This document shows positions 1 through 14,041 of a stretch of 34,235 bases of DNA, in pieces. The notes under the pieces were generated by a model that saw only the letters and a program-made list of their open reading frames with translations, was not told where the DNA came from and ran no database searches. This DNA is from Rhodobacterales bacterium 32-67-9 (lineage in GTDB: Bacteria; Pseudomonadota; Alphaproteobacteria; Rhodobacterales; Rhodobacteraceae). The position numbers were made by a program, and so were the translations under genes. Where the stretch lies: assembly GCA_002280515.1 (NCBI GenBank), contig NCEA01000007.1:1-34235 (forward strand), in the 5' to 3' direction. Every line of letters starts with the position of its first letter. Positions within the stretch are counted from its first letter, which is position 1.

Positions 1-1340
1 GCAATATCCTTGCCATCCTCGTCCTCACGGCGGTCCATCACGATCAGCTTGCCGCCGCGCTTGGTGAACTGTTTGAAATAGGTCGCGGCGACGGGATGGT
101 TCTCGACCGGATTGCAGCCGATCACGATGGCCACGTCGGCATTCTCGATCTCGTTGAAGGTCGCCGTGACGGCACCGGAGCCGACATTCTCAAGAAGGGC
201 CGCCACCGAGGAGGCATGGCAAAGCCGGGTGCAGTGGTCGACGTTGTTGTGCCCGAAGCCCTGACGGATCAGCTTCTGGAAAAGATACGCCTCTTCGTTC
301 GTGCATTTGGCGGAACCGAAACCGGCGATGGCCCGACCACCATGCGCGTCGGTCAGCCGCCTGATCCCGTTCGCGGCGGCGTCCAGCGCCTCGTCCCAGG
401 TCGCTTCGCGGAAATGGTTCTGCCAGTTCGCCGGGTCGACATTCAGCCCCTTGGCCGGCGCGTCGGCGCGCCGGATCAGCGGCTTGGTCAGCCGGTGCGG
501 GTGGTGGATGTAGTCGAAGCCGAAGCGGCCCTTAACGCAGAGGCGGCCTTCGTTCGCGGGGCCGTTGATGCCCTCGACATACTTGACCTTGCCACCCTTG
601 ATCTTGAGCGAGACTTGGCAGCCGACACCGCAGAAAGGGCAGACCGAGGTCGTTTCGCTGTCATAATCCTCCCGGTCGCCAACCTGCGCCGCATCGACCA
701 CCGTCGCCGGCATCAGGGCGCCCGTCGGGCAGGCCTGCACGCATTCGCCGCAGGCGACACAGGTCGATTGACCCATCGGGTCGGCCATGTCGAAGACCGG
801 ATAGGCATCGTGCCCGCGGCCGGCCATGCCGATCACGTCGTTGACCTGAACCTCGCGGCAGGCGCGGACGCAAAGCCCGCACTGGATGCAGGCGTCGAGA
901 TTCACGCGCATCGCGACATGGCTGTCGTCGAGCAGCGGAATGCGCCCGGCGTCGAGCTTCGGGAAGCGGCTTTCGGAAACGCCGCTGGCCTCGGCCATGT
1001 CCCACAGATGCGAGGACTTGTCATGCGCCTTTGCCTGATCCGGCTGATCGGCCAGCAGCAGTTCCATCACCATCTCGCGCGATTTCTTGGCGCGGGGGCT
1101 GTCGGTCTTGACCACCATACCCTTCGCCGGATTGCGGCAGCAGGAGGCGGCAAGCACCCGCTCGCCCTCCACCTCGACCACGCAGGCGCGGCAGTTGCCG
1201 TCCGGGCGGTAGCCTTTCTGGTCCTTGTGGCAGAGATGCGGGATCGTGGTACCTTCGCGCTTGGCAACCTCCCAGATCGTCTCGCCAGGGGCGGCGGAGA
1301 CTTCGCGGCCGTCGAGGGTGAATTTGATCGCGTCGGTCAT
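1..1340 (-). CDS. fdsA: NAD-dependent formate dehydrogenase, alpha (catalytic) subunit, partial
   Basis: Catalytic subunit that oxidises formate to CO2 at a bis-MGD cofactor holding Mo or W. Only the first 446 codons are in the window; the C-terminal half lies beyond the left edge. Domains seen in order: an N-terminal plant-type [2Fe-2S] ferredoxin domain (C37, C50, C53, C67), a two-cluster [4Fe-4S] region beginning CIQCGLC at residue 151, then CPFCGVGC at 234-241 opening the molybdopterin oxidoreductase domain. The metal-ligand position reads VDHCTRLCH, with Cys (not Sec) at residue 374. The start ATG lies one base after the fdsB stop and has a GAGG ribosome site inside the end of fdsB, so the two are translationally coupled. 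The order beta then alpha, and a two-subunit enzyme, match Methylobacterium FDH1, a tungsten enzyme. Sequence alone does not decide between Mo and W; the nearby tungstate transporter favours W by inference. Confidence 0.95.
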   Translation of the reverse strand, partial: MTDAIKFTLDGREVSAAPGETIWEVAKREGTTIPHLCHKDQKGYRPDGNCRACVVEVEGERVLAASCCRNPAKGMVVKTDSPRAKKSREMVMELLLADQPDQAKAHDKSSHLWDMAEASGVSESRFPKLDAGRIPLLDDSHVAMRVNLDACIQCGLCVRACREVQVNDVIGMAGRGHDAYPVFDMADPMGQSTCVACGECVQACPTGALMPATVVDAAQVGDREDYDSETTSVCPFCGVGCQVSLKIKGGKVKYVEGINGPANEGRLCVKGRFGFDYIHHPHRLTKPLIRRADAPAKGLNVDPANWQNHFREATWDEALDAAANGIRRLTDAHGGRAIAGFGSAKCTNEEAYLFQKLIRQGFGHNNVDHCTRLCHASSVAALLENVGSGAVTATFNEIENADVAIVIGCNPVENHPVAATYFKQFTKRGGKLIVMDRREDEDGKDI

Positions 1341-1341
1341 G

Positions 1342-3036
1342 TCAGACCTCATCCGGGAAATGTTTCATCGTCAGGCGGATCGGGTTCGGTGCGGCCTGGC
1401 CGAGGCCGCAGATCGAGGCGTCGCCCATCACCTGGCAGAGGTCTTCGAGCAGGTCCTGGTCCCACTTCGGTGCTTGCATCAGCTTCACCGCCTTCTCGCA
1501 GCCGACGCGGCAGGGCGTGCATTGCCCGCAGGATTCGCTTTCGAAGAAGCGCAGCATGTTGAGCGCGGCGTCCCTGGCACTGTCCTTGTCCGACAGTACG
1601 ACCACGGCGGCCGAACCGATAAATGTGCCGTGTGGCTGCAGCGTGTCGAAGTCGAGCGGCACGTCGGCCATCGAGGCGGGCAAGAGGCCCGACGACGGAC
1701 CGCCAGGTTGGTAGGCCTTGAAGGCATGGCCCTTGGCCATGCCGCCGCAGGCTTCGATGATGTCGGCGATCGTCGACCCTGCCGGCAGCAGATAGACCCC
1801 CGGCTTCGCAACGCGGCCCGAGACGGAGTAGGACCGGAGCCCCTTGCGGCCGTTCTTCTCGGTCGAGTTCAGCACCTCCGGCCCCTCGCGCAGGATGCGG
1901 GCGATCCAGTGCAGCGTCTCGACGTTGTGGACCAGTGTCGGCCGGTCGAAGATGCCGACGGCGGCGACGTAGGGCGGACGCTGGCGCGGGATGCCGCGCT
2001 TGCCTTCGATCGATTCGATCATCGCGGATTCTTCGCCGCAGATATAGGCGCCGGCGCCGCGCCTCAGTTCGACCTCACCCTTGAGTATGATGCCCGCCTC
2101 TTCCAGCGCGGCGATCTCGCGGCGGAGGATTTCCAGGACGGCGGGATATTCGTCGCGCATGTAGATGAAGCAGCGCTCTGCCTCGACCGCCCAGGCGGCG
2201 ATCAGCATGCCTTCCAGCATCAGGTGCGGAGTGCGTTCGAGGTAGTAGCGGTCCTTGAACGTTCCCGGCTCGCCCTCGTCGCCGTTGACGGCAAGGTAGC
2301 GGATGCCGGGATTGGCACGCACGAAACCCCATTTGCGACCCGAGGGGAAGCCGGCGCCGCCAAGTCCGCGCAGGCCCGAGGCGAGGACGGTTTCCTGCAC
2401 CTTCTCCCAGTTGCCGGACTTGCGCAACTCGGCCAGCGTCGCATAGCCGCCCGCCGCCTTGTAGGCCGCGAGACCCTCGTAAGTCGGGATTTCGGCGTGG
2501 AAATGACCGTCTTTCAGTGCCGCCTCGACCTTGGCGGGGGTCGCGTGGTCGATATGCCGGTGACCGATCTCGAGGACCGGCGCGGTGTCGCAGCGGCCCA
2601 TGCACGGCGCGCGCAGGACGCGGATCTTCTTCGGGTCCATGCCCTTTTCCAAAGCCGCGATCAGCGCTTCGGAACCGGCAAGTTCGCAGGACAGCGACTC
2701 GCAGACCCGGATCGTCAGGTCGGGGGGCGGCGTCTCGCCCTCCTTCACCGGATCGAAATGGGCGTAGAAGGTCGCGACCTCCCAGATCTCGGCCATGCCT
2801 GTGCCCAGTTCCTCGGCCACGGCGCGCAGATGCGGGGCCGAAAGGCATCCGTAGCGATCCTGGATCAGGTGCAGGTACTCGATCAAGAGGTCGCGCCGGC
2901 GCGGCCCGTCACCGAGCAGCGTCTTGACCTCGTCCCAGGCGGTGTCGTCGAGTTGGCGGCCCTTCGGGGTCTTGCGGCCCCGGCCCTTGCCCGATTTCCA
3001 GATGCCGTCCTTGTCGTCGAGTGCCATCGTCGTCAT
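1342..3036 (-). CDS. fdsB: NAD-dependent formate dehydrogenase, fused beta subunit (NuoE-NuoF type)
   Basis: Diaphorase subunit passing electrons from the alpha subunit to NAD+ through FMN. It is a fusion of what are separate FdsG and FdsB proteins in other bacteria. Residues about 35-180 are the NuoE-like thioredoxin-fold [2Fe-2S] domain with ligands C112, C117, C145 and C149. Residues about 200-564 are NuoF-like, with the FMN/NAD glycine-rich loop GLGGAGFPSG (224-233), GDEGEPGTF (252-260), GAYICGEESA (329-338), and [4Fe-4S] ligands C503, C506, C509 and C543. The length of 564 aa fits fused beta subunits such as Methylobacterium Fdh1B. Two starts are possible: the ATG at 3036 lies only 3 bases after a GGAAGG site, while the ATG at 3027 (Met4) is better spaced, about 9 bases. 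Cotranscribed with fdsA downstream; the promoter region is shared with the divergent tusA-like gene. Confidence 0.95.
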   Translation of the reverse strand: MTTMALDDKDGIWKSGKGRGRKTPKGRQLDDTAWDEVKTLLGDGPRRRDLLIEYLHLIQDRYGCLSAPHLRAVAEELGTGMAEIWEVATFYAHFDPVKEGETPPPDLTIRVCESLSCELAGSEALIAALEKGMDPKKIRVLRAPCMGRCDTAPVLEIGHRHIDHATPAKVEAALKDGHFHAEIPTYEGLAAYKAAGGYATLAELRKSGNWEKVQETVLASGLRGLGGAGFPSGRKWGFVRANPGIRYLAVNGDEGEPGTFKDRYYLERTPHLMLEGMLIAAWAVEAERCFIYMRDEYPAVLEILRREIAALEEAGIILKGEVELRRGAGAYICGEESAMIESIEGKRGIPRQRPPYVAAVGIFDRPTLVHNVETLHWIARILREGPEVLNSTEKNGRKGLRSYSVSGRVAKPGVYLLPAGSTIADIIEACGGMAKGHAFKAYQPGGPSSGLLPASMADVPLDFDTLQPHGTFIGSAAVVVLSDKDSARDAALNMLRFFESESCGQCTPCRVGCEKAVKLMQAPKWDQDLLEDLCQVMGDASICGLGQAAPNPIRLTMKHFPDEV

Positions 3037-3112
3037 CCACCTTCCGGTCCGCCTGCTCAGGCGTCGCTTCTGACAAAGGCGGGTCCGCCGATCAATCCGG
3101 CAGTCCCGTCAG

Positions 3113-3133
3113 TTGATAGGTTATGTCAATCAA
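3113..3133. promoter_or_regulatory. LysR-type operator-like dyad between fdsB and tusA-like gene
   Basis: The 182-base gap between the divergent fdsB and tusA-like genes contains TTGAT (3113-3117) and ATCAA (3129-3133), perfect inverted arms separated by 11 bases. This is the T-N11-A arrangement typical of LysR-type regulator boxes. It lies about 87 bases upstream of the fdsB start and 96 upstream of the tusA-like start, so one regulator could serve both. Some formate dehydrogenase operons are known to be under LysR-type (FdsR) control. No LysR gene is present in this window, so the assignment is inference. Confidence 0.4.
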
Positions 3134-3138
3134 AAGCG

Positions 3139-3153
3139 GCCTCTTTCAGAGGC
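3139..3153. promoter_or_regulatory. Short perfect inverted repeat in fdsB/tusA divergent region
   Basis: GCCTCT (3139-3144) and AGAGGC (3148-3153) form a perfect 6-base inverted repeat with a 3-base loop (TTC), six bases beyond the LysR-type dyad. It could be a small RNA hairpin in the leader of the tusA-like transcript or a second protein site. There is no T-tract, so it is not a convincing terminator. Confidence 0.3.
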
Positions 3154-3218
3154 TATTTCTGTCACGACGAATCTCAAGATGATGGACAGTATACGGCACT
3201 TTCTCTATCCCCGGCGCC

Positions 3219-3449
3219 ATGAACTGGGATCTTGAACTCGATGCGACCGGGCTTTTGTGTCCGCTGCCCGTGCTGAAGGCGCGCAAGCGGCTTGCGGGAA
3301 TGGCGCCGGGTGCGGTGCTGCGGCTGATCGCGACCGATCCGGCGGCGGTCATCGACGTGCCGCATTTCTGCGCCGAGGCGGGGCACGACCTGATCGGCAC
3401 GGGCGAGGACGGCGGCGCCCAGATCTACCTGATCCGGCGGCGGACCTAG
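3219..3449 (+). CDS. TusA-family sulfurtransferase-like protein
   Basis: A 76-residue single-domain protein of the TusA (SirA/YeeD) family. The diagnostic Cys-Pro motif is present as CPLP at residues 14-17, with C14 the expected persulfide-carrying cysteine, followed by the usual helix and the PAAVIDVPHFC segment. TusA proteins carry sulfur from cysteine desulfurases to tRNA thiolation, molybdopterin synthesis and other acceptors. The location is informative: divergent from fdsBA and tail-to-tail with moeA, inside a molybdenum/tungsten cofactor cluster that also has fdhD. A role supplying sulfur to FdhD or to the pterin dithiolene is therefore plausible but inferred. Its stop codon overlaps the moeA stop in the palindrome CTAG. 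It is shorter by a few residues than E. coli TusA (81 aa). Confidence 0.88.
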   Translation: MNWDLELDATGLLCPLPVLKARKRLAGMAPGAVLRLIATDPAAVIDVPHFCAEAGHDLIGTGEDGGAQIYLIRRRT

Positions 3450-4717
3450 AACCCGAAGCTCGCGAAGGGCAGATACCTGACCGGTGTTCCCGGCGTGATC
3501 TCGGCCGCGGCATCGGGCAATTCGACAAGTCCGGTTGCCCAGCTCAGCCCGCTGATCCGGCCGGATCCTTCGGAGGCGAAGACCTCGGCGCGTCCCTCGG
3601 CGTTGAGCCGGGCGCGCAGGTATTCCCGCCGGCCCGCCTTCTTGCGCTTGGCAAAGGCGGCCGGGACGGTGAAGGCCTGCGGCTCGGCCCAACCGGCGCC
3701 GGCCATCTGCGACAATGCCGGACGGGCGAAGATCAGCGCGCAGACCAGCGCCGCGACCGGGTTGCCCGGCAGGCCGAAGACCGGCGTTCCCTGCCACAGC
3801 GCCAGCGCCAGCGGCCGCCCCGGCTTCATCGCGATGCGCCAGCTCGACAGCGTGCCGCGCGTGCGCAGAAGCACCGAGATGTGATCCTCGTCCCCCGCCG
3901 AGGCGCCGCCAGAGGTCAGGATCACGTCCGCCGCCGCCGCGCCCCGGTCGAGGCACTCGGCGATCGCGGTCGGATCGTCGATGGCATGGCCGAGGTCGAC
4001 CGGCGCGAACCCCCAGCTTTCGGCCAGCGCCAGCAGCATCGGCCGGTTGGCGTCGAAGATCTGGTGCGGTTCCGCCGCCGCGCCGGGATCGTCCACGATC
4101 TCGTCGCCGGTGGAGAGCACCCCGACTCGAAGCGGCCGGTAGACCTCCACCTCGGCGATCCCGAGCGCGGCGAGCAGCGCAAGATCGGGCGGGCGAAGCC
4201 GATGGCCGGCCCGCAGCGCCTCGGCGCCTTCGGTCACGTCCTCGCCGGCCTGCCGGGTGTTGGCGCGGGGCTTCACCGGCCCGTCGAAGGCGACCGTTGT
4301 CGCGTCCGTGGCGCAGTCCTCTTCGAGGACGACGGTATCGACACCGTCGGGCAGGATCGCGCCGGTCAGGATGCGGATCGCCTGCCCCGGCGGGACGACG
4401 CCCGCGAAGGGCTGCCCCGCGGCGGCGCGGCCCTTGACGAGCGACAGGCGCTGCACGCCTTCGCCGGTCGCGGCATGGGCGAAGCCATAGCCGTCCACGG
4501 CGGAATTCGGGCGCGGCGGGTTGGAGCGGCGGGCAATGGCCCCGGCGGCAAGAATGCGGCCAAGTGCGGCACGCCCCGGCAACCGCTCGGTCCCGGCAAT
4601 GGGGAGAAGCGCCGCGCGCAACCGCGCCAGCGCATCCTCCACCGGCACCCAGGACACGCCCTGCGGCATCGCGAAACAGTCGTCGCGCAGGCGCGGCGGG
4701 ATGAGAGGATCGGTCAT
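3446..4717 (-). CDS. moeA: Molybdopterin molybdenumtransferase (metal insertase) MoeA
   Basis: Inserts molybdate (or tungstate) into adenylated molybdopterin, giving Mo/W-MPT, in the cytoplasm. The 423-residue length is normal for the family. Motifs seen: NSAVDGYGF (71-79), LTGAILPDG (117-125), the MogA-like domain with STGDE (202-206) and TSGGASAGDEDH (268-279), KPGRPLA (298-304) and GLPGNPVAA (315-323), then a C-terminal beta domain. The start ATG overlaps the stop of the upstream unknown gene by 4 bases (ATGA), and the gene ends an overlapping operon that begins at fdhD. Its stop overlaps the convergent tusA-like stop. The family does not discriminate Mo from W by any motif I can read. Confidence 0.95.
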   Translation of the reverse strand: MTDPLIPPRLRDDCFAMPQGVSWVPVEDALARLRAALLPIAGTERLPGRAALGRILAAGAIARRSNPPRPNSAVDGYGFAHAATGEGVQRLSLVKGRAAAGQPFAGVVPPGQAIRILTGAILPDGVDTVVLEEDCATDATTVAFDGPVKPRANTRQAGEDVTEGAEALRAGHRLRPPDLALLAALGIAEVEVYRPLRVGVLSTGDEIVDDPGAAAEPHQIFDANRPMLLALAESWGFAPVDLGHAIDDPTAIAECLDRGAAAADVILTSGGASAGDEDHISVLLRTRGTLSSWRIAMKPGRPLALALWQGTPVFGLPGNPVAALVCALIFARPALSQMAGAGWAEPQAFTVPAAFAKRKKAGRREYLRARLNAEGRAEVFASEGSGRISGLSWATGLVELPDAAAEITPGTPVRYLPFASFGF

Positions 4718-5574
4718 GCGGCCTCGCTGTCTGCCGAAGTTCCGGCAAGGCCGAGGATCCAGCCTTCCTCGCGCCGGGCCGTCGGCGGGATATCCGACAA
4801 AGCGGCCGCAAGACGCCCCCGGTCCTGCATCGCAGCGATGCGGGCGGCGAGCGTCCTCACCTGCACCTCATCCCTGATATCGCCCGGCCGCGTCGCCGCC
4901 CGCACCGCATCGGCGTGAAGCGAGGGCCAGACCTCGACCAGCGCAATCGGCGCGTCAAGCGGCTGGAACGGCCAGACGGCGATCTTGCCGGGAAAGCGGG
5001 CGCGAAGCCGGGAAAGGGTGGCCATGCCGGTCATCACCTGCGATCCGACCGCGCCGGCACCGCCCATCTGCCAACAGGTGAAAGCCCCCTTGGCGAAGGT
5101 CTCGCAGAGGCGGCGTTCAACCATGCCGTGATCGCGCCGTGCGTTTCCCTTGCGCGGCAGGTCGGGAATGTCGTCCGTCGAGCCGTTGAACCAGAAGGGG
5201 CCGGTGCCGGGAAATCGGGTGTTGATCCGGCCGGCCAGATGAAAGCGGTTGTTGCCCTTCGGCGCATCATCGAGATGCTGCGCGAACCAGTCCCAAAGTA
5301 GCAAAGGATCGGACGACCCGGTAATCCGGGCAGCGAACCCCTCCGGGTAGCCGAAGGGAAAGTCGAACCCGGCGAAGACCCGTCGCCCGGCGGCAATCTC
5401 CGCCGAGAAGAGGTCGGCCAGCCAGGTCTCGGCGACGCCCCGGTTGCGGTGATAGACCGAAGGTTCCGCGCGGCCCTCACGGATCACGGCCGACCAGATG
5501 GCGTCCTTCTTCGGCGTGGCGCCCCGGTCGTTACCGCCGGACCAGTCGGTGACGACGATGGTGTCGAACCGCAT
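4714..5574 (-). CDS. Uncharacterised DUF429-like (RNase H-fold-like) protein in Mo/W cofactor operon
   Basis: A 286-residue soluble protein with no signal peptide or membrane segment. The N-terminal strand ending in VVTDWSGG (Asp near residue 10) and the later FAGFDFPFGYP (Asp near 71) resemble the acidic strand pattern of DUF429 proteins, which are predicted to adopt an RNase H-like fold; this is a weak fold-level match, not a function. Other distinctive stretches are the GRINTRFPGTGPFW and WQMGGAGAVGSQ segments in the middle and VEVWPSL near residue 210. It is embedded between mobB and moeA: it shares one base with the mobB stop (TGATG) and overlaps moeA by four, so translation is coupled. 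A GTG at 5577 is an alternative start. The placement suggests a part in cofactor maturation, metal selection or regulation, but the molecular role is unknown. Confidence 0.8.
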   Translation of the reverse strand: MRFDTIVVTDWSGGNDRGATPKKDAIWSAVIREGRAEPSVYHRNRGVAETWLADLFSAEIAAGRRVFAGFDFPFGYPEGFAARITGSSDPLLLWDWFAQHLDDAPKGNNRFHLAGRINTRFPGTGPFWFNGSTDDIPDLPRKGNARRDHGMVERRLCETFAKGAFTCWQMGGAGAVGSQVMTGMATLSRLRARFPGKIAVWPFQPLDAPIALVEVWPSLHADAVRAATRPGDIRDEVQVRTLAARIAAMQDRGRLAAALSDIPPTARREEGWILGLAGTSADSEAA

Positions 5575-6068
5575 CACAGCCCCACCTCGCGCAAGATGAA
5601 ATCCGCGATGGCGGTCGTATCGTCGAGGTCGTGGACCGGCAGCGTGAGGCCGGGATGCGCGGTGTCCGACGCCACCGCCCTGACGCTCGGGTTGTCGGGC
5701 GCCAGAAGCGGGCGTCCCGTTGCCGCCCGGTGCGCCTCGACCTTCGGATGGCTTTCGCGCTTGTAGCCCTCCACCAGCACGAGATCGACCGGCGAGAGCT
5801 TCGCCAGAAGCTCGGTCAGCGGCGGCTCCTCCGTTCCCCTGAGTTCGTGCATCAGCGCCCAGCGGACCGGCGAGGCGACGATCACTTCGCGCGCGCCGGC
5901 CTCGCGGTGGCGGAAGCTGTCGCGGCCGGGGTGGTCAATCTCGGTCGCATGATGGGCGTGCTTGACAGTCGAGACGGAGAACCCGCGCCCGGTGATCTCG
6001 GCCACCAGCCGCTCCATCAGGTGAGTCTTGCCGGAGTTCTTCCAGCCGGTGACGCCGAAAACCCTCAT
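5574..6068 (-). CDS. mobB: Molybdopterin-guanine dinucleotide biosynthesis accessory protein MobB
   Basis: Small P-loop GTP-binding protein that assists MobA in forming the bis-MGD cofactor used by formate dehydrogenase. The Walker A loop GWKNSGKT is at residues 8-15, followed by the MobB-typical STVKHAHH and DHPGRDSFRHREAGA segments and LVEGYKRESHPKVE. At 164 aa it has the normal family length. I chose the ATG at 6068 because its first bases overlap the mobA stop (ATGA) and the protein begins directly at the first strand of the P-loop domain; the frame is open further upstream but that reading overlaps mobA. Its stop shares one base with the next start. Confidence 0.95.
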   Translation of the reverse strand: MRVFGVTGWKNSGKTHLMERLVAEITGRGFSVSTVKHAHHATEIDHPGRDSFRHREAGAREVIVASPVRWALMHELRGTEEPPLTELLAKLSPVDLVLVEGYKRESHPKVEAHRAATGRPLLAPDNPSVRAVASDTAHPGLTLPVHDLDDTTAIADFILREVGL

Positions 6069-6673
6069 GTCGCCAGCCTCTCGGCTGCGGCGATGTCGTC
6101 GGGCGTGTTGATGTTGAAGAAGGGATCGAACGGGTCCGAGGGGAATTCCGCGATCCCGGCGCCGTGGCGCTCGGTCCAGAGGACGATCTTCCGAAGCCCG
6201 CCTTCCAATGCCGCCCTGAGGTCGTCGCGCAGCGCGACCGGCCAGAGGCCGAAGGTCGGGTGCTGCCAGAGCTTGCCGTCCGCATCCCGGCTTGCCGCCA
6301 ACGCAAGGCACGAGGACCCGGCAGCGGCGCTAAGCCGCGCCACGAGGTCGCGCGGGAAGAACGGCGTGTCGGCGGCGACGGTGATGATGGAGCCGGCGCC
6401 AAGACCAGCGGCCCAGTCGAGACCGGCGAGGACGCCGGCGAGCGGGCCGGGATGGTCGGGCAGGCTGTCGGGCAGCACCGGCAGGCCGAACTCCGCGAAC
6501 CGCGCCGGATCGCCGTTTGCGTTGATCGCGAGCGGTGCGCACTGGGTGCCGATCCGCTCGATCACATGGTCGATGATCCGCCGCCCGGCCAGCGGCCGGA
6601 ACCCCTTGTCGCCGCCGCCCATCCGCGTCGCGCGGCCGCCGGCAAGGATGATGCCGGGAAGGTCAGTGGGCAT
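6065..6673 (-). CDS. mobA: Molybdenum cofactor guanylyltransferase MobA
   Basis: Transfers GMP from GTP to Mo/W-molybdopterin to make MGD. The nucleotidyltransferase signature LAGGRATRMGGGDK lies at about residues 10-23, followed by LPDSLPDHPGPLAGVLAGLD, the metal-binding AADTPFF strand, and a C-terminal NINTPDD typical of MobA. The 202-residue length is normal. The gene overlaps the upstream GNAT gene by 11 bases and mobB by 4, so it is part of a tightly coupled operon with fdhD. Having mobA, mobB and moeA in one cluster means the bis-MGD branch of the pathway is covered locally; the earlier steps (moaA to moaE) are not in the window. Confidence 0.95.
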   Translation of the reverse strand: MPTDLPGIILAGGRATRMGGGDKGFRPLAGRRIIDHVIERIGTQCAPLAINANGDPARFAEFGLPVLPDSLPDHPGPLAGVLAGLDWAAGLGAGSIITVAADTPFFPRDLVARLSAAAGSSCLALAASRDADGKLWQHPTFGLWPVALRDDLRAALEGGLRKIVLWTERHGAGIAEFPSDPFDPFFNINTPDDIAAAERLAT

Positions 6674-7118
6674 CCGGGTTCTCCCGGAATGCGCGCTCCC
6701 GCTCGGGGTCGAGCCACTTTTGCAGGACCGTCACCGCGTTCTCCTCGTAGCCGAGGGCGTCGTAGAAACCGAGGACCGGCGCGTTAGACCGGCGGACGAG
6801 AAGCTGCAGCTTGGCGTGGCCATGCCGCCGCGCCCAGTCCTCCGCCGCCGTCATCGCCTGCTGTCCGAGGCCTTGCCCGCGCAGGTCGGGATCGGAGCAG
6901 AGGTAGTAGACCCAGGCGCGGTGGCCGCCATCCTCGACCGCGACGCTGGCGACGATCCTGTCGCCCGAACGGGCGACGAGCAGTGCCGATCTCGGATTGG
7001 CACGGATCGCGGCAATATCGGTCTCGGGCGGGTTCCAGGGCCGGGTCATGCCGGCCCGCTCCCAAAGCGCGATGAGGCGGGCTATCTCGTCGTCGCGGAC
7101 CGGGTGGAATTCAGTCAT
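6663..7118 (-). CDS. GNAT family N-acetyltransferase
   Basis: A 151-residue single-domain acyl-CoA-dependent acetyltransferase. The acetyl-CoA pyrophosphate-binding loop reads DLRGQGLGQQAM (about 80-91), preceded by the VYYLCSDP strand and followed by LLVRRSNAPVLGFYDALGYEEN, the usual motif B region with the FY..LGY signature. It resembles the YpeA-type branch. The substrate cannot be read from the sequence. It sits between fdhD and mobA, overlapping fdhD by 8 bases and mobA by 11, so it is expressed with cofactor genes. It may be a passenger or may act on a protein of the pathway. Confidence 0.88.
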   Translation of the reverse strand: MTEFHPVRDDEIARLIALWERAGMTRPWNPPETDIAAIRANPRSALLVARSGDRIVASVAVEDGGHRAWVYYLCSDPDLRGQGLGQQAMTAAEDWARRHGHAKLQLLVRRSNAPVLGFYDALGYEENAVTVLQKWLDPERERAFRENPDAH

Positions 7119-7980
7119 CCCCGGCCCCTTTGCGGCGATGCTTGCGGTCCTCGTCCTCGCCGGTCAGCGCGGCGTCCCGCACCAGCCGCTCCTCTCCCGC
7201 GAGACAGACGAAGCGTTGCCCGCGCATCCGGCCAATGAGCGTCAGGCCGACCTGACGCGCGATTTCCACCCCCCAGGCGGTGAAGCCCGAGCGTGAGGCA
7301 AGCACGGGAATGCCCATCAGCGCCGTCTTGATCACCATCTCCGATGTCAGCCGTCCGGTCGTGTAGAGGATCTTGTCGGCCGCCGGCACGCTCTCGCGGA
7401 ACATGTAGCCGGCGATCTTGTCGACCGCGTTGTGGCGCCCGACATCCTCCATGTAGACAAGCGGCCGGTCACCCTGGCAAAGAACCGTGCCGTGGATCGC
7501 GCCCGCCTCGAGATAGAGCGAGGGCGTCGTGTTGACCTCCTTCGCCAGCGCGTAAAGCCAGCTTGCCCGCACTTCGGCCGGCGGCAGCGCCAGCCCCTCC
7601 AGCCCCTCCATCATGTCGCCAAAGACCGTGCCGACGGCACATCCGGAGGTCCGGGTCTTCTTCCTGACCTTCTCCTCGTAGGAGGTCTGGCGTTCGGTCC
7701 GCACCACGACCGTCTCGATCTCCTCGTCGTAGTCGACGCCGGTCACCACGTCATCGGCGCGCAGCATCCCCTGATTGCGCAGGAAGCCCACGGCAAGGTA
7801 ATCGGGATAATCGCCGATCGTCATCGCCGTCACGATCTCCTGCGCGTTGAGGTAGATCGTCAGCGGCCGCTCCTCCACCACCGAGATCTCGGTCGCGGCG
7901 CCGGTCTGGTCGGTGCCGGTGACGCGCCGCGTCAGCCTCGGATCGGCGGGGTCGGGAAGGATCGGCAGGGCAGGGGGCAT
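7111..7980 (-). CDS. fdhD: Formate dehydrogenase accessory sulfurtransferase FdhD
   Basis: Delivers sulfur from a cysteine desulfurase to the bis-MGD cofactor of formate dehydrogenase, a step needed for activity. Family features include EISVVEERPLTIYLN, TIGDYPDYLAVGFLRNQG, VYMEDVGRHNAVDKI, YTTGRLTSEMV and ASRSGFTAWGVE. The sulfur-carrying cysteine is C114 in TSGCAVGT; the second cysteine of the E. coli CxxC loop is Gly here. I chose the ATG at 7980 (289 aa) because it has a GGAAAG site 7 bases upstream and leaves room for an operator-like repeat; an upstream ATG at 8007 has a poor ribosome site. First gene of an overlapping operon through GNAT, mobA, mobB, the unknown gene and moeA. Divergent from the DUF2478 gene. 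Confidence 0.95.
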   Translation of the reverse strand: MPPALPILPDPADPRLTRRVTGTDQTGAATEISVVEERPLTIYLNAQEIVTAMTIGDYPDYLAVGFLRNQGMLRADDVVTGVDYDEEIETVVVRTERQTSYEEKVRKKTRTSGCAVGTVFGDMMEGLEGLALPPAEVRASWLYALAKEVNTTPSLYLEAGAIHGTVLCQGDRPLVYMEDVGRHNAVDKIAGYMFRESVPAADKILYTTGRLTSEMVIKTALMGIPVLASRSGFTAWGVEIARQVGLTLIGRMRGQRFVCLAGEERLVRDAALTGEDEDRKHRRKGAGDD

Positions 7981-7996
7981 CGGGCGGCTTTCCGTT

Positions 7997-8023
7997 TCGC
8001 CCGGCATCTTGTATTCCGGGCGA
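7997..8023. promoter_or_regulatory. Perfect 8-bp inverted repeat in fdhD / DUF2478 divergent region
   Basis: TCGCCCGG (7997-8004) and CCGGGCGA (8016-8023) are perfect inverted arms separated by 11 bases, with half-site centres 19 bases apart. The repeat fills most of the 63-base gap between the chosen fdhD start (7980) and the DUF2478 start (8044). It could be an operator controlling both directions, or a 5' leader hairpin that affects ribosome access. It argues for the shorter fdhD reading frame. Confidence 0.45.
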
Positions 8024-8043
8024 GGCAGTTTCAAGGGGAAGCC

Positions 8044-8550
8044 ATGCTTGGCTATGTCATCTCGGAAGGGCGCGGCACGGCAGACCGCTATCTGGCCGAG
8101 GTCGTCCACCGGCTTCATGCCGAGGGCGTGGCGGTGGCCGGCGCGGTGCAGGTCAATTCCGACCAGAGCGATCTCCAGCGCTGCGACATGGACCTGCACG
8201 TGATCGGGCCGGGACGGATCGTGCGGATCAGCCAGAATCTCGGGGCGCTCTCCAAGGGCTGTCGGCTCGACCCGGCGGGACTCGAACAGGCGGTCGGGCT
8301 GGTCGAGGCGACGCTCGACGCCACCGACCGGCCCCGGCTTCTGGTGGTCAACAAGTTCGGCAAGCAGGAGATCGAGGGTCGTGGGTTTCGCCCGGTTATC
8401 GGCCGGGCGCTGACCGAGGGCATCGCGGTCCTGACCGCCGTCAACACCGCGAGCCTCGCGGGGTTCCGCGCCTTCGCCGAGGGCATGGAGCAGGAAGTGC
8501 CGCTCGATATCGCTGCGATCCTCGACTGGAGCCGCCGCGCGGCGGGCTGA
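8044..8550 (+). CDS. DUF2478 family protein (degenerate P-loop NTPase-like)
   Basis: A 168-residue cytoplasmic protein recognised as DUF2478 by the segment LLVVNKFGKQEIEGRGFR near residue 100 and its overall pattern. The N-terminus, YVISEGRGTADRYLAEVVHRL, follows the strand-loop-helix layout of MobB or THEP1 nucleotide-binding proteins, but the loop lacks the Lys-Ser/Thr of a true Walker A. DUF2478 members are often annotated as molybdenum-transport related because of their neighbours; their function is not established to my knowledge. Here the gene is divergent from fdhD and followed after 129 bases by tupBCA. Ribosome site AAGGGGAAG precedes the ATG. A role in sensing or handling molybdate/tungstate, or in cofactor binding, is inferred from context only. 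Confidence 0.82.
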   Translation: MLGYVISEGRGTADRYLAEVVHRLHAEGVAVAGAVQVNSDQSDLQRCDMDLHVIGPGRIVRISQNLGALSKGCRLDPAGLEQAVGLVEATLDATDRPRLLVVNKFGKQEIEGRGFRPVIGRALTEGIAVLTAVNTASLAGFRAFAEGMEQEVPLDIAAILDWSRRAAG

Positions 8551-8586
8551 GGCAGCTTCAGCGACGGGCGGGAATGTCGCAAATGT

Positions 8587-8622
8587 GGACAAAATGTCCG
8601 AAGTGATGGTCAACTTGTCCAT
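8587..8622. promoter_or_regulatory. Twin palindromic operator upstream of tupBCA
   Basis: Two similar palindromes lie in the leader of tupB. Site 1 has GGACA-AAA-TGTCC (8587-8599, perfect arms, centre 8593). Site 2 reads ATGGTCAA-C-TTGTCCAT (8606-8622, one mismatch, centre 8614). Aligned on their centres they share TGG.CAA..TGTCC. The centres are 21 bases apart, two helical turns, which suits cooperative binding by a dimeric repressor. A further GCGAC-N10-GTCGC inverted repeat sits just upstream (8561-8580). A metal-oxyanion-responsive regulator is a natural candidate; the motif does not look like the E. coli ModE site. Confidence 0.6.
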
Positions 8623-8679
8623 TTCCTCGCCTATGCTCACCCCCTAAGGATTGGCGCGACCGAGGGGAACGAGCCGGCA

Positions 8680-9384
8680 ATGAACGATATCTATCAAGGC
8701 CTTTACCAGGCGATGCGTCTTCTGGTGACGCTCGATCCCGGCCTTGTGGAAATCACGGCCCGGTCGCTTCAGGTAACCCTGACGGCGACGGTCATCGCCT
8801 CGGCGATCGGGTTGCCGCTTGGTGCGTGGATCGCGGTCAACCGGTTCTGGCTCCGCCGCTATGCCATCGCGATCCTCAATGCGTTGATGGGGTTGCCGCC
8901 GGTCGTCGTCGGGCTGATGGTCTATGTCGTCCTTTCGCGGGCCGGCCCGCTTGGCGTGCTCGGGCTGCTCTTCACGCCCACCGCGATGATCATTGCCCAG
9001 ATCATCATCATTACCCCGATCATCGCCTCGATCTCGCATCAGGCAATCCGTGATCTCTGGGCCGACTACCATGATCTCCTGATCTCGCTCCATGCCAGCC
9101 GCCGGCAGCGGATCGCGACGCTGCTCTGGGACGGGCGGCGGGCGCTGATGACGGCGGCGCTCGCCGGCTTCGGGCGGGCCATCGGCGAGGTCGGCGCGAT
9201 CATGATCGTCGGCGGCAATATCGACCATGCGACGCGGGTCCTGACCACGGCTATCGCGCTCGAGACCGGCAAGGGCGACTTCGCGCTGGCGCTTGCACTT
9301 GGCTTCATCCTCATCGCTCTCGCCATCGCCGTGAACCTTGCTCTGCATATCCTGTCGGGAACCGAAAGGGGCAGCCGATGGTGA
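8680..9384 (+). CDS. tupB: Tungstate ABC transporter, permease TupB
   Basis: Inner-membrane permease of a tungstate importer, 234 aa. Several hydrophobic segments are visible: about 30-52, 60-82, 93-115 and a C-terminal one at about 203-225. The cytoplasmic coupling loop reads GFGRAIGEVGAIMIVGGNI (about 162-180), characteristic of TupB/WtpB/ModB-type permeases that contact the ATPase. The segment ALMGLPPVVVGLMVY and the short length fit TupB better than molybdate permease ModB. First gene of tupB-tupC-tupA, with tupC overlapping by 7 bases. The leader contains paired palindromes. Confidence 0.9.
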   Translation: MNDIYQGLYQAMRLLVTLDPGLVEITARSLQVTLTATVIASAIGLPLGAWIAVNRFWLRRYAIAILNALMGLPPVVVGLMVYVVLSRAGPLGVLGLLFTPTAMIIAQIIIITPIIASISHQAIRDLWADYHDLLISLHASRRQRIATLLWDGRRALMTAALAGFGRAIGEVGAIMIVGGNIDHATRVLTTAIALETGKGDFALALALGFILIALAIAVNLALHILSGTERGSRW

Positions 9385-10094
9385 GCTCGATCCTGCCCCT
9401 GACCCTCGACGCGGTGGAACTTCGACGCGGTGGCAAGCGCATCCTCGGCCCGGTCTCGCTTACCCTCGACGGCGATGGTATCACCATCGTCCTCGGCCCG
9501 AATGGCAGCGGCAAGACAACGCTCCTGCGGACAATGCACGGGCTGGAACGGATCAACCGGGGGCACGCGAGGTGGACCGGCGACGCGGATAGGGTCCACG
9601 CGCGGCAGGCCTTCGTCTTCCAGACCCCGGTGCTGATGCGTCGCTCGGTTCTCGACTGCATCGCCTATCCCTTGCGGCTCGACGGCGTCGACCGGCGCAG
9701 CGCCCGCGACCGCGCCGCCGAAGTCGCTGCATCGGTGGGTCTCACCGCCACGCTCGACGCGCCGGCCCAGATCCTTTCGGGCGGTGAGCGGCAGAAGATG
9801 TCGCTGGCCCGGGCTTTGATCCGCACACCCGAGGTGCTTTTTCTCGATGAACCCTGCGCCAATCTCGACATGGCTTCGATGGCCGAGATCGAGGCGATCC
9901 TGATCCGCACGCGCAATGCCGGCACGCGGATCGTCATGTCCACCCACAACATCGGCCAAGCCCGTCGCCTCGCCGATGACATCCTCTTCCTCCACGACGG
10001 CCGGGTCATCGAATCCGCCCGCCGTGACGCGTTCTTTGCCGGGCCCGGAACGCCAGAGGCCAGGGCCCATATCAACGGAGACCTTCTTCCATGA
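9378..10094 (+). CDS. tupC: Tungstate ABC transporter, ATP-binding protein TupC
   Basis: Cytoplasmic ATPase powering tungstate uptake, 238 aa. Walker A GPNGSGKTT is at 40-48, the Q-loop at FQTP (81-84), the ABC signature LSGGERQ at 133-139, Walker B LFLDEP at 154-159 and the switch His in STHN near residue 193. There is no C-terminal TOBE/molbindin domain of the kind that regulates ModC, which agrees with the TupC type. Overlaps tupB by 7 bases and tupA by 4 (ATGA). Confidence 0.92.
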   Translation: MVSSILPLTLDAVELRRGGKRILGPVSLTLDGDGITIVLGPNGSGKTTLLRTMHGLERINRGHARWTGDADRVHARQAFVFQTPVLMRRSVLDCIAYPLRLDGVDRRSARDRAAEVAASVGLTATLDAPAQILSGGERQKMSLARALIRTPEVLFLDEPCANLDMASMAEIEAILIRTRNAGTRIVMSTHNIGQARRLADDILFLHDGRVIESARRDAFFAGPGTPEARAHINGDLLP

Positions 10095-10894
10095 CCTTCA
10101 AGACCCTGCTTGCCACCGTCTCTGCGCTCTGGCTGGCCACCGCGGCCGGCGCCGAGGAGATGAAGATGGCCGTCACCACCTCCTTCGCCAATTCCGGACT
10201 GGCCGAAATCCTGCTGCCGCAGATCGAGAAGGACACCGGCATCACGGTGGAGCTTCTCGTCGTCGGCACCGGCCAGGCGCTGAAGCTCGGCGCGGCGGGC
10301 GATGTCGATGCCGCCCTCGTCCATGCCCGCGCCGCCGAGGAGAAGTTCGTCGCCGACGGCGACGCCACCCACCGGCGCGAGATCATGTACAACGACTTCA
10401 TCGTCGTCGGCCCCTCGGGCGATCCGGCGGGGGCGAAGGCTGCCACGACCGCGAAGGACGCGTTCGCGACGATCGCGGCGGCGCAGGCCCCCTTCGTCAG
10501 CCGCGGCGATGACAGCGGCACCCACAAGGCGGAACTCGCGATCTGGGCCGCCGCCGGGGTTGAACCCTCGGGCGACTGGTACAAGGCCGTGGGCCAGGGT
10601 ATGGGCGCCGCGCTGAACACCGCCGCCGGGATGGACGCCTATATCTTCGCCGACCGGGCAAGCTGGCTCAATTTCGGAAACAAGGGGGATCTTGCGCTTC
10701 TCTTCGAAGGTGATCCGGCGCTCTTCAACCAGTATGCCTATCTGCCGGTGAACCCCGAAAAGCACCCGCATGTGAAGGCCGAGGCGGCGAAGGCGCTTGA
10801 GAACTGGCTGACGAGCGACACCGCGAAGGCGCTGATCGAAGGCTACACCATCGCCGGTCAGCAGCTCTTCACCTTCAACGCCCAGCCGATGTGA
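10091..10894 (+). CDS. tupA: Tungstate-binding periplasmic protein TupA
   Basis: Periplasmic substrate-binding protein, 267 aa, with a Sec signal peptide (about residues 1-21, ending ATAAGA before EE). TupA-type motifs are present: TTSFANSGL early, LVVGTGQALKLG, ALVHARAAEEKFV, IMYNDFIVVGP and FVSRGDDSGTHKAE. These distinguish it from ModA and resemble the high-affinity tungstate binders that exclude molybdate. It is last in the operon here (B-C-A), whereas A-B-C order is common elsewhere. A GC-rich stem-loop follows the stop. The specificity call rests on family resemblance. Confidence 0.92.
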   Translation: MTFKTLLATVSALWLATAAGAEEMKMAVTTSFANSGLAEILLPQIEKDTGITVELLVVGTGQALKLGAAGDVDAALVHARAAEEKFVADGDATHRREIMYNDFIVVGPSGDPAGAKAATTAKDAFATIAAAQAPFVSRGDDSGTHKAELAIWAAAGVEPSGDWYKAVGQGMGAALNTAAGMDAYIFADRASWLNFGNKGDLALLFEGDPALFNQYAYLPVNPEKHPHVKAEAAKALENWLTSDTAKALIEGYTIAGQQLFTFNAQPM

Positions 10895-11024: not shown

Positions 11025-12722
11025 TCAGCCGGGGATGATCTCGAACTTCTCGACGTCGACCATGCCCCGGTCGGTGATCTTCAGGGCCGGGATGACCGGC
11101 AGCGCCAGAAACGCGAGTTGCAGGAACGGCTCGTCCAGCGTCACCCCAAGGTCACGGGCGGCGGCGCGCAAGGCGACCAGCCGGTCGCGCACGTCCTCAA
11201 AGGGGTTGAGGCTCATCAGCCCTGCGACCGGCAGCGCAAGCTCGGCCAGCACCGCGCCGTCCCGCACGACGACAAATCCGCCCTCGATCTCGCCCAGCCG
11301 GTTGGCGGCGAGCGCCATGTCGGCATAATCCGCCCCCACGACCGCGATATTGTGGTGATCGTGGCAGACCGTCGAGGCGATGGCCCCGGCCTCGATGCCG
11401 AAGCCCTTGACGAAGCCGGTCGCGATGTTGCCGTTCTTTCCGTGCCGCTCCACAACCGCGATCCGCATCAGGTCGCGGGTCGGATCGGGGCGCTTGTCGC
11501 CATCGCTGATCGCGATCTCCTCGCGCAGATGCTCGGTGATGATCTTGCCTTCGAGGATGCCGATCACATCGGTCTCCACCCGGTTTGCCCGGGCGCGGAA
11601 ATCCTCCGGGCGCACACGCGGCGCCTTTACTGACTGGCGTCCGACCGGCGGGATCACCGTCCGCGCGGCAAAGGCCGCGCCGTCGGCCCGCTGCCCTGCA
11701 CACAGCACGAGTTGCGCGTGGCAGCCCTCCAGACTGTCCACCGCGACGATATCGGCGCGTTTGCCCGGCGCGATCTGGCCGCGATCCTTCAACCCGAAGG
11801 CCTCCGCCCCCGACAGCGACGCCGCGCGATAGGCGGCGAGCGGCGCGGTGCCAAGGGCGATCAGCCGGCGGATCATGTAGTCGAGATGGCCGTGCTCGGC
11901 GATGTCGAGCGGGTTCCGGTCGTCGGTGCAAAGGCACATGTAGGCCGAGGTCGCCTCGGTCAGCACCGGCTGCAACGCATCGAGATCCTTGGAGACCGAG
12001 CCTTCGCGGATCAGCACCCGCATGCCCTTGCTCAGCTTCTCCCGCGCCTCCGCGGCCGTCGTCGCCTCGTGCTCGGTCCGTATCCCGGCGGCGATATAGG
12101 CGTTGAGATCGCGGCCCGAGAGTTGCGGGCAATGGCCGTCGATATGGCCGCCCTCGAACAGCCTGAGCTTCGCCATCGCGCCCGGATCGCGGTGGATGAC
12201 GCCGGGATAGTTCATGAACTCGGCCAGCCCGATCCCGGTCTCGTGCCCCATCACCCTTTCCAGATCGGCGGCGTCGATCCGCGCGCCCGCCGTCTCCATC
12301 TCGGTCGAGGGAACGCAGGAGGAGAGCTGCACGCGGATATCCATCACCGTATGGCGCGCCGCTTCCTGGAAATAGCGGATGCCGTCGAGGCCGACCACAT
12401 TGGCGATCTCGTGCGGGTCGCAGATCGCCGTCGTCACACCGCGCGGGGCGACGCAGCGATCAAATTCAAAGGGCGTGACGAGAGAGCTTTCGATATGCAG
12501 ATGCGTGTCGATGAAGCCGGGAACGAGCGTCAGGCCGACGACGTCGATCACCTCGCGCCCTTCGTAGGCGGCGCCTATCCCGACGATCGTGTCGCCGGCG
12601 ATCGCCACATCGCCTTCGATCATCGCCCCGGTCACGACATCGAAGACCCGCCCCCCGCGCAACACCAGATCGGCCGGCGCGTCGCCCCGGCCCTGGGCGA
12701 TCCGTTGTTCGAGTTCCGTCAT
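11025..12722 (-). CDS. ade: Adenine deaminase
   Basis: Amidohydrolase-superfamily enzyme converting adenine to hypoxanthine in purine salvage, 565 aa. The metal-binding DTHLHIESS lies near residue 90, followed by [11 protein letters not shown], a GHCPQLSG segment, [15 protein letters not shown], and a C-terminal adenine-deaminase domain containing [12 protein letters not shown]. Length and domain order are those of bacterial Ade. I chose the ATG at 12722 because a GGGAGG site lies 6 bases upstream and the protein then begins in the usual way; the frame is open for another 51 codons upstream but lacks family resemblance there. Convergent with tupA and divergent from an MFS permease. The exact purine substrate is inferred from the family. 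Confidence 0.92.
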
Positions 12723-12856
12723 GCATGCCTCCCGGGGGTCGGTTCGAAACCTGTCGCCGCCACTCTTCCCCAGCGGCGCCGGCAGTTCAATGGCCGGCAC
12801 CCTTGCATGCCCCCGCAATCTGCCGCAGGGTCGCGCCGAGCGGGCGCGGGGGAACG
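12723..12856. other. Divergent intergenic region ade / MFS with inverted repeat
   Basis: This 134-base gap should hold promoters for both ade and the MFS gene. It contains two GCCGGC arms (12778-12783 and 12793-12798) separated by 9 bases, able to form a hairpin on either strand or serve as an operator. I see no convincing -35/-10 pair. Confidence 0.3.
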
Positions 12857-14041
12857 ATGCGGGCGGGATTGGCATTCTTGGTGGCGGGCTATGTGCTCAG
12901 CCAGTTCTACCGCGCCTTTCTGGCGGTCCTGTCGCCGGTCCTCGGGGCCGAGATCGGGGCGATGCCCGGCGATCTGGCGCTGTCGTCGGGCATCTGGTTC
13001 CTGATCTTCGCGGTGATGCAGATGCCGGTGGGGGCCGCGCTCGACCGGATCGGGCCGAGGATCACCGTCTCGGTTCTGCTCGGGCTTGGCGGTGGCGGCG
13101 GCGCGCTGATCTTCGCGCTGGCCGAGGGGCCGGGCGCGGTGCATCTGGCGATGGCGCTGATCGGGATCGGCTGTTCGCCGGTCCTGATGGCGTCCTACTA
13201 CATCTTCGCGCGGGTCTATTCGCCGGCCGTCTTCGGCACCCTTGCCGGGGCGATCATCGGGCTCGGGTCGCTCGGCAATATCGCCGGGGCGGCGCCGCTG
13301 GCCTGGCTGGCAGAGCTCGCCGGCTGGCGCGAGACCCTATTTGGCCTTGCCGCCGTGACGTTCCTTGTCGCCCTCGCGCTCTGGTTCTTCGTCCGCGATC
13401 CCGAGCGGGTGGAAATGCCGGAGACCGGGCGCGGTTCGGTGATGGACCTCCTGAAGGTTCCCGGCCTCTGGGCGATCGTCCTGATGATGTCGGTCGCCTA
13501 TGCGCCCGCCGCCTCGATCCGGGGGCTCTGGGCCGGGCCGTACCTGTCTTCGGTCTTCGGTGCCGATGCCCAGGCGATCGGGCGGGCGACGCTGGTGATG
13601 GCGCTCGCGATGGTGGCGGGCAACTTCGCCTACGGCCCCCTCGACCGGATCTTCGGCACAAGGAAATGGGTGGTCTTCTGGGGCAACGCGCTGGGCGCGG
13701 CCTGCCTTGCCGCGCTGGTGCTCTGGCCGGCGTCGGGTTTCTGGAGCGCGACAGCACTTCTGGCGGCGTTGGGGTTCTTCGGGTCGTCGTTCCCGGCGAT
13801 CATGGCGCACGCGCGCACGTTCTTTCCGCCGCATCTCGTCGGGCGCGGGGTGACGCTGGTCAACATGTTCGGCATCGGTGGGGCCGGCATCCTGCAATTC
13901 GCTTCGGGGCGATTCCACCGCGTCATGACGGATGGCGCCGCGACGCCCGAGGCGCCCTTCGCCGCGCTTTTCGCCTTCTTCCTCGTGCCGCTCCTGATCG
14001 GCCTCGGACTGTATCTCTTCAGCCGCGACGCGGCGGGCTAG
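12857..14041 (+). CDS. MFS family transporter
   Basis: A 394-residue integral membrane protein with about twelve hydrophobic segments in two halves, in the major facilitator superfamily. The loop after the second segment reads [10 protein letters not shown], the MFS motif-A type, and the cytoplasmic centre [17 protein letters not shown] separates the two halves. The ATG at 12857 has a GGGGGAA site just before it and the first membrane helix begins at once; the upstream 44 codons in frame do not look like protein. Divergent from adenine deaminase, so a purine or related metabolite is a possible substrate, but the sequence does not identify it. Confidence 0.85.

Follow-up and report, generated by a model that had tools for sequence, protein, structure and literature searches.

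A predicted single-island tungsten route for an MeFDH1-type formate dehydrogenase in a Rhodobacterales genome

In Methylorubrum extorquens, deletion experiments showed that MoeA1, MobB and FdhD are required for tungsten (W) to reach the formate dehydrogenase MeFDH1, and a further protein, MoeA2, serves the molybdenum (Mo) formate dehydrogenases of that organism. Two residues of MoeA1, Arg291 and Ala312, bias it to W; when Lys and Ser were put in their place, some Mo appeared in the enzyme, with MoeA2 still present. The order of the steps and the MobA step belong to the authors' model. The same work, published in April 2026, already noted the moeA1-mobB-tupBCA cluster and the frequent linkage of W transporters to operons for W use (PMC13197769). 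Here we describe a related locus in the DNA of Rhodobacterales bacterium 32-67-9, in which the first 10,894 bases of a 34,235-base stretch (hereafter the window) hold genes for a formate dehydrogenase linked to nicotinamide adenine dinucleotide (NAD), for the maturation of its cofactor, and for a Tup-type transporter.

Judged by its gene content and relatives, this locus very probably represents a single-island tungsten route for an NAD-linked formate dehydrogenase of the MeFDH1 type. The likeness of the enzyme to MeFDH1, the residues of its MoeA, and the shared distribution of the uptake and enzyme genes all point in this direction. The pathway itself is already known from M. extorquens, and the window provides a further case, gathered in one island. 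How two nearly identical oxyanions are each routed to the correct enzyme is an old question, and the island combines uptake, insertion, completion and the enzyme.

Enzyme, insertase and transporter

An earlier reading of the window from its letters alone (the sequence-only reading) had claimed an enzyme of MeFDH1-like architecture, and our comparisons agree with it. Domain matches place a NuoE-like and a NuoF-like part on a single beta chain, FdsGB, whose best PDB match is 7e5z_B (698 bits over positions 16-562), the beta chain in the structure of the M. extorquens tungsten formate dehydrogenase. The formate dehydrogenase beta chain 6tg9_B reached 261 bits, over positions 188-562 only and with the gamma part uncovered; we take 6tg9 to be the Mo formate dehydrogenase of Rhodobacter capsulatus. 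A sister entry, 6TGA, is assigned to R. capsulatus (PMC10869683). Because the fdsA gene of the window is truncated, the alpha subunits were compared through a relative at locus L280 that is 94% identical to the window's fdsA stretch (tblastn match) and has a full chain of 930 residues. This full-length FdsA scored 1357 bits against the alpha subunit of MeFDH1 and 637 bits against R. capsulatus FdsA (6tg9_A). The predicted enzyme is of the MeFDH1 kind, that is, like the tungsten enzyme of M. extorquens.

In the window's MoeA, Arg301 and Ala322 align with Arg291 and Ala312 of M. extorquens MoeA1. A second MoeA, encoded on contig C4 of this genome, carries Lys and Ser at these positions. The closest named match to the window's protein comes from a Rhodobacteraceae metagenome-assembled genome (88% identity).

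For TupA, the tungstate model was the sole NCBIfam match (2e-56; 191 bits, with a cut-off of 400), and the first PDB match was the tungstate-binding protein 3lr1 (E=4e-71). TupB best matched a general permease model (260 bits), followed by the tungstate TupB model (6e-50; 170 bits, with a cut-off of 320). Arg138 of TupA occupies the position of Arg118 in the Desulfovibrio alaskensis protein, and the TTTS motif of that protein reads VTTS here. Among 53 TupA copies, a set that includes the window's own and perhaps counts some genomes twice, VTTS is present in 51 and the Arg is kept in 52, with one unreadable. With scores below both cut-offs, the provisional assignment of the transporter to tungstate draws on its best match, this Arg and the company of its gene. 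TupA proteins of the family fall roughly into two tiers, at ~57-75% (the tier of the window) and ~41-56% identity to the window's protein, and one weak second copy shows 31%. TupABC was counted in 685 of 3683 Mo-using bacteria in an earlier Mo/W survey, according to the available part of that report (PMC6147048).

The window comprises bases 1-34235 of contig C59 (134,609 bases), in a genome of 3.72 Mb and 60 contigs. The sequence-only reading had listed a formate dehydrogenase, a TusA-like protein, MoeA, MobA, MobB, FdhD, a DUF2478 protein and TupBCA within 11 kb, and every named gene was found. The start of the contig truncates fdsA after 450 codons. The genes are as follows.

1..1352, minus strand: fdsA, 5' part of 450 codons, encoding the catalytic alpha subunit of an NAD-linked formate dehydrogenase; Fer2_4, 4Fe-4S, Molybdop_Fe4S4 and Molybdopterin domains
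1342..3036, minus strand: fdsGB, fused gamma-beta subunit (NADH/flavin mononucleotide); 2Fe-2S_thioredx, Complex1_51K, SLBB and NADH_4Fe-4S in a single frame
3219..3449, plus strand: tusA-like sulfur carrier; NCBIfam TusA E=4e-18, 65 bits, below the cut-off of 78
3446..4717, minus strand: moeA, of the MoeA1 (tungstate insertase) kind by its Arg301 and Ala322
4714..5577, minus strand: unnamed gene, earlier labelled DUF429-like; NCBIfam PRK14495, no Pfam family
5574..6068, minus strand: mobB; PF03205 E=6e-48
6065..6673, minus strand: mobA, molybdenum cofactor guanylyltransferase; TIGR02665, 195 bits, above the cut-off of 152
6663..7118, minus strand: GNAT acetyltransferase; NF002959, 132 bits, above the cut-off of 124
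7111..7980, minus strand: fdhD, sulfurtransferase for formate dehydrogenase; PF02634 E=2e-72
8044..8550, plus strand: DUF2478 protein (PF10649); 163 bits, with a gathering score of 22.3
8680..9384, plus strand: tupB, putative tungstate ATP-binding cassette (ABC) permease; NF041773 E=6e-50, below cut-off
9378..10094, plus strand: tupC, ABC ATPase; generic ABC ATPase matches only, placed between tupB and tupA
10091..10894, plus strand: tupA, putative tungstate-binding protein; NF041772 E=2e-56, below cut-off, and PDB 3lr1

Six of these genes, fdhD-GNAT-mobA-mobB-unnamed-moeA, form a run with overlapping ends on the minus strand, in which mobB is followed by the unnamed gene and then by moeA, with tupA in the same genome. 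The genes DUF2478-tupB-tupC-tupA run on the plus strand, divergent from fdhD; provided that the chosen starts of fdhD and DUF2478 hold, 63 bases separate the two genes. Since tusA lies on the plus strand, convergent with moeA and divergent from fdsGB, it is placed outside the moeA operon. Chance is ruled out as the source of the gene arrangement because the gene order recurs in other genomes.

Distribution across genomes

A survey of 120 genomes from 119 genera of the family was searched for tupA (which stood for tupBCA), the unnamed protein, FdsGB, DUF2478, window-type MoeA and MobB; the p-values of this survey ignore kinship. The sampled family is taken as that of R. capsulatus, known for its well-studied Mo formate dehydrogenase. 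Fused FdsGB is present in 79 of the 120 genomes, in six only as a version of 56-59% identity and in the rest at 64-100%. All 79 also have tupA, seven genomes have tupA alone, and 34 have neither (Fisher p=2e-23), which bears out the expectation from the sequence-only reading that tupBCA and a fused fdsB occur together across genomes.

Window-type MoeA (43-100% identity) follows a similar distribution, being present in 85 genomes, 84 of which have tupA; 33 genomes have neither. It is found in 84 of the 86 tupA genomes, missing from G008 (82% complete) and G030, and G042 is the sole family genome that has it without tupA. Two window-type moeA copies and two tupA genes occur in G045. In the genus of the window's genome, G010 gave no match for tupA, the unnamed protein, MobB or fused FdsGB and has a single MoeA, of the housekeeping kind. 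The gene set is therefore variable within one genus, since the window's genome carries it.

Both Arg and Ala are present in all 84 readable copies of window-type MoeA from 83 genomes (85 loci were fetched besides the window, and L146 of G089 is incomplete), as well as in 80 of 80 MoeA proteins from a set of named records. Among 34 housekeeping MoeA proteins read, Lys is present in all and Ser in 33, the exception being G117 (Lys, Ala). In G009, the window-type moeA is in two pieces (C3, 1948596-1949836), through real decay or a sequencing error.

The maturation operon is similarly recurrent. At the 85 window-type moeA loci (84 genomes, the window not counted), moeA is accompanied by mobB in 83 cases, by mobA in 82, by fdhD in 78 and by the unnamed gene in 40; among the genomes with a missing operon part, G102, G119, G019 and G054 have moeA near a contig end. 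MobB scored above the family cut-off in 83 of 85 genomes with window-type MoeA versus 8 of 35 without it, in a search that scored the best 31 candidates per genome, so that absence is not strict. This distribution fits the reported membership of MobB in the W branch.

At the level of the class, 142 genomes were drawn nearly all from different families, and 46 of them have tupA. In these, 69 MoeA copies from 59 genomes were read, mostly best-scoring matches; they cover every tupA genome but G149 and 14 of the tupA-less genomes, many of the other 82 having no MoeA match. An Arg-type copy is present in 42 of the 45 tupA genomes read, and in 39 of these it is Arg/Ala. We also built a tree of 118 MoeA copies. 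It sampled roughly a fifth of the 84 family copies and took in the 34 housekeeping copies, together with those class copies in which more than 300 residues were aligned. One side of the tree has 46 rows, including 44 of the 46 Lys/Ser rows, and the other has 72 rows, including all 63 Arg/Ala rows. The tree was made by a quick method, its main split has a Shimodaira-Hasegawa-like approximate likelihood ratio test (SH-aLRT) value of 93 (the 95 mark was not reached), and many of its forks are weak. From this grouping, Arg/Ala looks like the mark of one old MoeA subfamily rather than the product of many independent changes. On the Arg/Ala side, Lys occurs in 3 of 13 tupA-less rows versus 2 of 59 tupA rows (p=0.04, rows not independent), a hint that the Arg site may drift back to Lys once tungstate uptake is lost.

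Several observations qualify or weigh against a dedicated tungsten route, and the first concerns gene position. Co-location of tupA with fdsGB is far rarer than their co-occurrence and is not the rule, as just 4 of the 79 genomes have the two within 10 kb of each other. Seven genomes have tupA within 10 kb of window-type moeA, and the full set of tupA, fdsGB, moeA, DUF2478 and the unnamed gene is found together in 2 of 120, namely G000 (the genome of the window) and G039. Many family genomes are fragmented, which lowers these co-location counts. Among 80 named loci, tupA is present in 23 and the trio of tupA, fdsGB and moeA in 13, and tusA is matched in 54. Tup, maturation and fds genes share a locus in, among other culturable relatives, Defluviimonas salinarum CAU 1641 (L321) and Donghicola tyrosinivorans DSM 100212 (L300). 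These named records were chosen by MoeA similarity and are thus biased to close kin, at least seven of them also belong to the 120-genome sample, and their loci span 3.4-19.3 kb, some being too short for all parts. The fdsGB match of G039 (C34, 148015-149706) contains one in-frame stop, which is either real decay or a sequencing error.

Other points of this kind concern the assignments themselves. Both Tup models were matched below their curated cut-offs. At class level, three of the 45 tupA genomes read (G171, G183 and G239) have no Arg-type MoeA copy, and Arg MoeA occurs in 9 of the 14 tupA-less genomes read, in eight of them as Arg/Ala. The 84 Arg/Ala cases of the family are not independent events, because Arg/Ala MoeA proteins share one side of the tree. 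The MoeA of Escherichia coli presumably has Lys at the Arg position. At the Ala position it has Ser303 (PMC13197769), and E. coli makes active MeFDH1, at low yield and activity, when given tungstate via ModABC or TupBCA, according to the accessible part of a further report (PMC13396061). Since the MoeA of E. coli can insert W, an Arg/Ala MoeA is not chemically indispensable. The proposal of a dedicated route from uptake to enzyme is supported by the co-occurrence of tupA and fdsGB, the MoeA1-type residues and the genetics of M. extorquens, though tupA and fdsGB mostly lie apart.

It is possible, though in our view unlikely, that the locus is a general maturation island for formate dehydrogenases and the bis-molybdopterin guanine dinucleotide (bis-MGD) cofactor, which would serve any formate dehydrogenase that adjoins it. 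In G092, G088 and G070 (loci L043, L047 and L050), the W maturation genes are found at a distance of 7-9 kb from another alpha gene that resembles a formate dehydrogenase and is 33-34% identical to fdsA. The one scanned, that of G092, is cut off by the end of the locus; it belongs to the Fdh-alpha kind and is preceded by a TorD-like gene. All three genomes nonetheless retain tupA and an Arg/Ala MoeA, so this other enzyme may also be a W enzyme.

Decidedly harder to sustain is the proposal that the enzyme uses Mo, or either metal, and that tup and window-type MoeA merely accompany it. The formate dehydrogenase of R. capsulatus, FdsABG, is from the same superfamily and is Mo-dependent (accessible part of PMC13396061), and the scarcity of fdsGB within 10 kb of tupA would be compatible with a loose association of this type. 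However, for both fdsGB and the L280 FdsA, the bit score with MeFDH1 is at least double that with the R. capsulatus chains, with the reservation that absence of the gamma part reduces the score of the R. capsulatus beta chain. Furthermore, fused fdsGB without tupA was found in 0 of the 79 genomes, and the MoeA of the window carries the MoeA1 residues. We therefore continue to favor a tungsten route.

The unassigned genes

The gene between mobB and moeA had been labelled DUF429-like, and this label was not upheld. PF04250 (DUF429) gave no match in 58 of 58 relatives of the unnamed protein at E<=1 (Pfam), and hhalign against four true PF04250 proteins returned a probability of 1.2% (E=0.043), with an alignment of 13 columns that surround a common D-x-P-x-G motif. 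By our own reading, the order of short motifs in the protein is reminiscent of those four DUF429 proteins. The nearest model is NCBIfam PRK14495, named "MobB/unknown domain fusion" (positions 167-441), and PDB searches with the protein gave no credible match. Invariant residues across the 58 members of the family include Asp10, Trp11, Ser12, Asp71, Glu214, Asp235 and Glu270. Speculatively, a metal-dependent site for cutting phosphoesters would be in keeping with Asp10, Asp71, Glu214 and Asp235.

Genomic context supplies further clues. The unnamed gene stands directly before window-type moeA in 42 of the 50 genomes having both, with gaps of 0-73 bases; an exception is G009, where 561 bases separate it from the broken moeA. 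Fusions in a single frame join the unnamed protein with MoeA in 32 loci, MobB with MoeA in 13, and MobB with the unnamed protein in 3. Across the 120 genomes, the gene is not associated with tupA (both in 50, tupA only in 36, the gene only in 17, neither in 17; p=0.42). Seventeen of the 67 genomes with the gene are without window-type MoeA and without tupA, and 35 genomes with window-type MoeA are without the gene. Thirteen of these 17 loci have mobA upstream of the unnamed gene, with mobB in between in seven and mobA as the direct neighbor in six; the latter six genomes have no MobB above the cut-off. Neither mobA nor mobB was seen in the other four (G026, G107, G118 and G028), and in G118 and G028 the gene is at a contig end.

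Because of these fusions and this distribution, the unnamed protein is probably a general cofactor-assembly partner in the late steps of MobA, MobB and MoeA rather than a W selector, and it looks like the W operon took up a MobA/MobB partner. We give about an even chance to a more specific proposal, in which the protein would be a bridging or catalytic subunit of a MobA-MobB-MoeA relay in assembly of the molybdenum and tungsten cofactors (Moco/Wco), and the Arg/Ala MoeA would insert tungstate across much of the class. If that holds for the MoeA, W use could be predicted from sequence. No account of an extra MobB/MoeA partner was found in the accessible portions of the open-licence PubMed Central literature.

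DUF2478 occurs in 64 of the 120 genomes, and it too shows no association with tupA (both in 43, tupA only in 43, the gene only in 21, neither in 13; p=0.31). It is divergent to fdhD in 11 of the 85 window-type moeA loci. A second DUF2478 gene of the same genome (L260 1109-1708, contig C41) comes after narJ, narI and a NifM-like gene. Within one genome, DUF2478 thus adjoins both nitrate reductase genes and formate dehydrogenase genes. To characterize its neighbors, 19 loci were fetched, giving the surroundings of 18 copies in other genomes; in L279 the gene calling did not find DUF2478 itself. A home-made rule called 137 open reading frames, and the own-genome locus is included in the counts. 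Among the 90 frames scanned the neighbors were mixed and included 11 ABC permeases, 7 ABC ATPases and 6 NnrU. PDB searches with DUF2478 gave no credible match, and in the open-licence PubMed Central literature it turned up just as a table entry.

The GNAT gene was found in 3 of the 80 named loci (L280, L289 and L325), always between fdhD and mobA, and the only match among 182 loci of an earlier comparison was L002, itself part of the window. It is probably a lineage-specific passenger, and it was rejected as a core part of the island on these counts. DUF2478 and the unnamed gene were rejected as W factors because neither is associated with tupA.

The suggestion of the sequence-only reading that the three unassigned genes might serve in steps such as W/Mo discrimination, which could draw on the unnamed gene adjoining or fused to moeA and on DUF2478 lying divergent to fdhD, can be dismissed as very improbable, given that both genes spread regardless of tupA, that the unnamed gene and window-type MoeA each occur without the other, that the former is often found behind mobA or mobA-mobB, that the second DUF2478 sits with narJ and narI, and that GNAT is rare. 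It is more likely that this discrimination resides in TupA and MoeA.

Beyond the island, a minus-strand gene at 11025-12875 encodes an adenine deaminase and was left out. Scans of the window with Rfam (gathering scores) and for tRNAs gave no matches. An aspartate-semialdehyde dehydrogenase gene at 15865-16731 (plus strand) encodes 288 residues, ~50 short of its models, with an in-frame gap in the NAD-binding half that reflects either a true deletion or an assembly fault.

Comparison with described systems

In the route that we propose, TupBCA would import tungstate, as expected from its family, and by homology MoeA (Arg301/Ala322) with MobB would put W into molybdopterin. MobA would then add guanosine monophosphate to give W-bis-MGD, and FdhD would add the sulfido ligand and load FdsA, with TusA probably feeding sulfur to FdhD. 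The completed FdsA-FdsGB would oxidize formate with NAD+ or run in reverse. The housekeeping MoeA (Lys/Ser) would serve Mo enzymes such as Nar.

The survey extends a result from one methylotroph to a testable rule for many genera, namely that tupA, fused fdsGB and Arg/Ala MoeA come and go together. This rule predicts a tungsten-based formate dehydrogenase in about two-thirds of the sampled genomes (79/120), and suggests that the tungsten formate pathway may be widespread in the family of this bacterium.

Like R. capsulatus FdsABG (PDB 6tg9/6tga), the window enzyme is predicted to be NAD-linked, with an N-terminal Fe-S domain in FdsA and a NuoE/NuoF-like diaphorase. In R. capsulatus, FdsG and FdsB are separate chains. 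The window enzyme shows lower similarity to these chains than to MeFDH1. In TupA of D. alaskensis, Arg118 and a TTTS motif line the oxyanion site, according to the accessible part of its description (PMC5517513); the selectivity-linked Arg is kept in the window, and TTTS there corresponds to VTTS here. The models PRK14495 (MobB/unknown fusion) and PRK14491 (MobB-MoeA fusion) join in one frame what the window has as three overlapping genes.

The closest likeness is to M. extorquens AM1, which also has a two-subunit enzyme with a fused beta chain, an Arg/Ala MoeA, MobB, MobA, FdhD, TupBCA and a separate MoeA for Mo (PMC13197769). In AM1, moeA1-mobB-tupBCA are clustered, and mobA and fdhD have distant locus numbers (PMC13197769 Table 1). 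In contrast, the window brings uptake, late maturation and the enzyme into one 11-kb stretch, and adds tusA, DUF2478 and the intervening gene between mobB and moeA.

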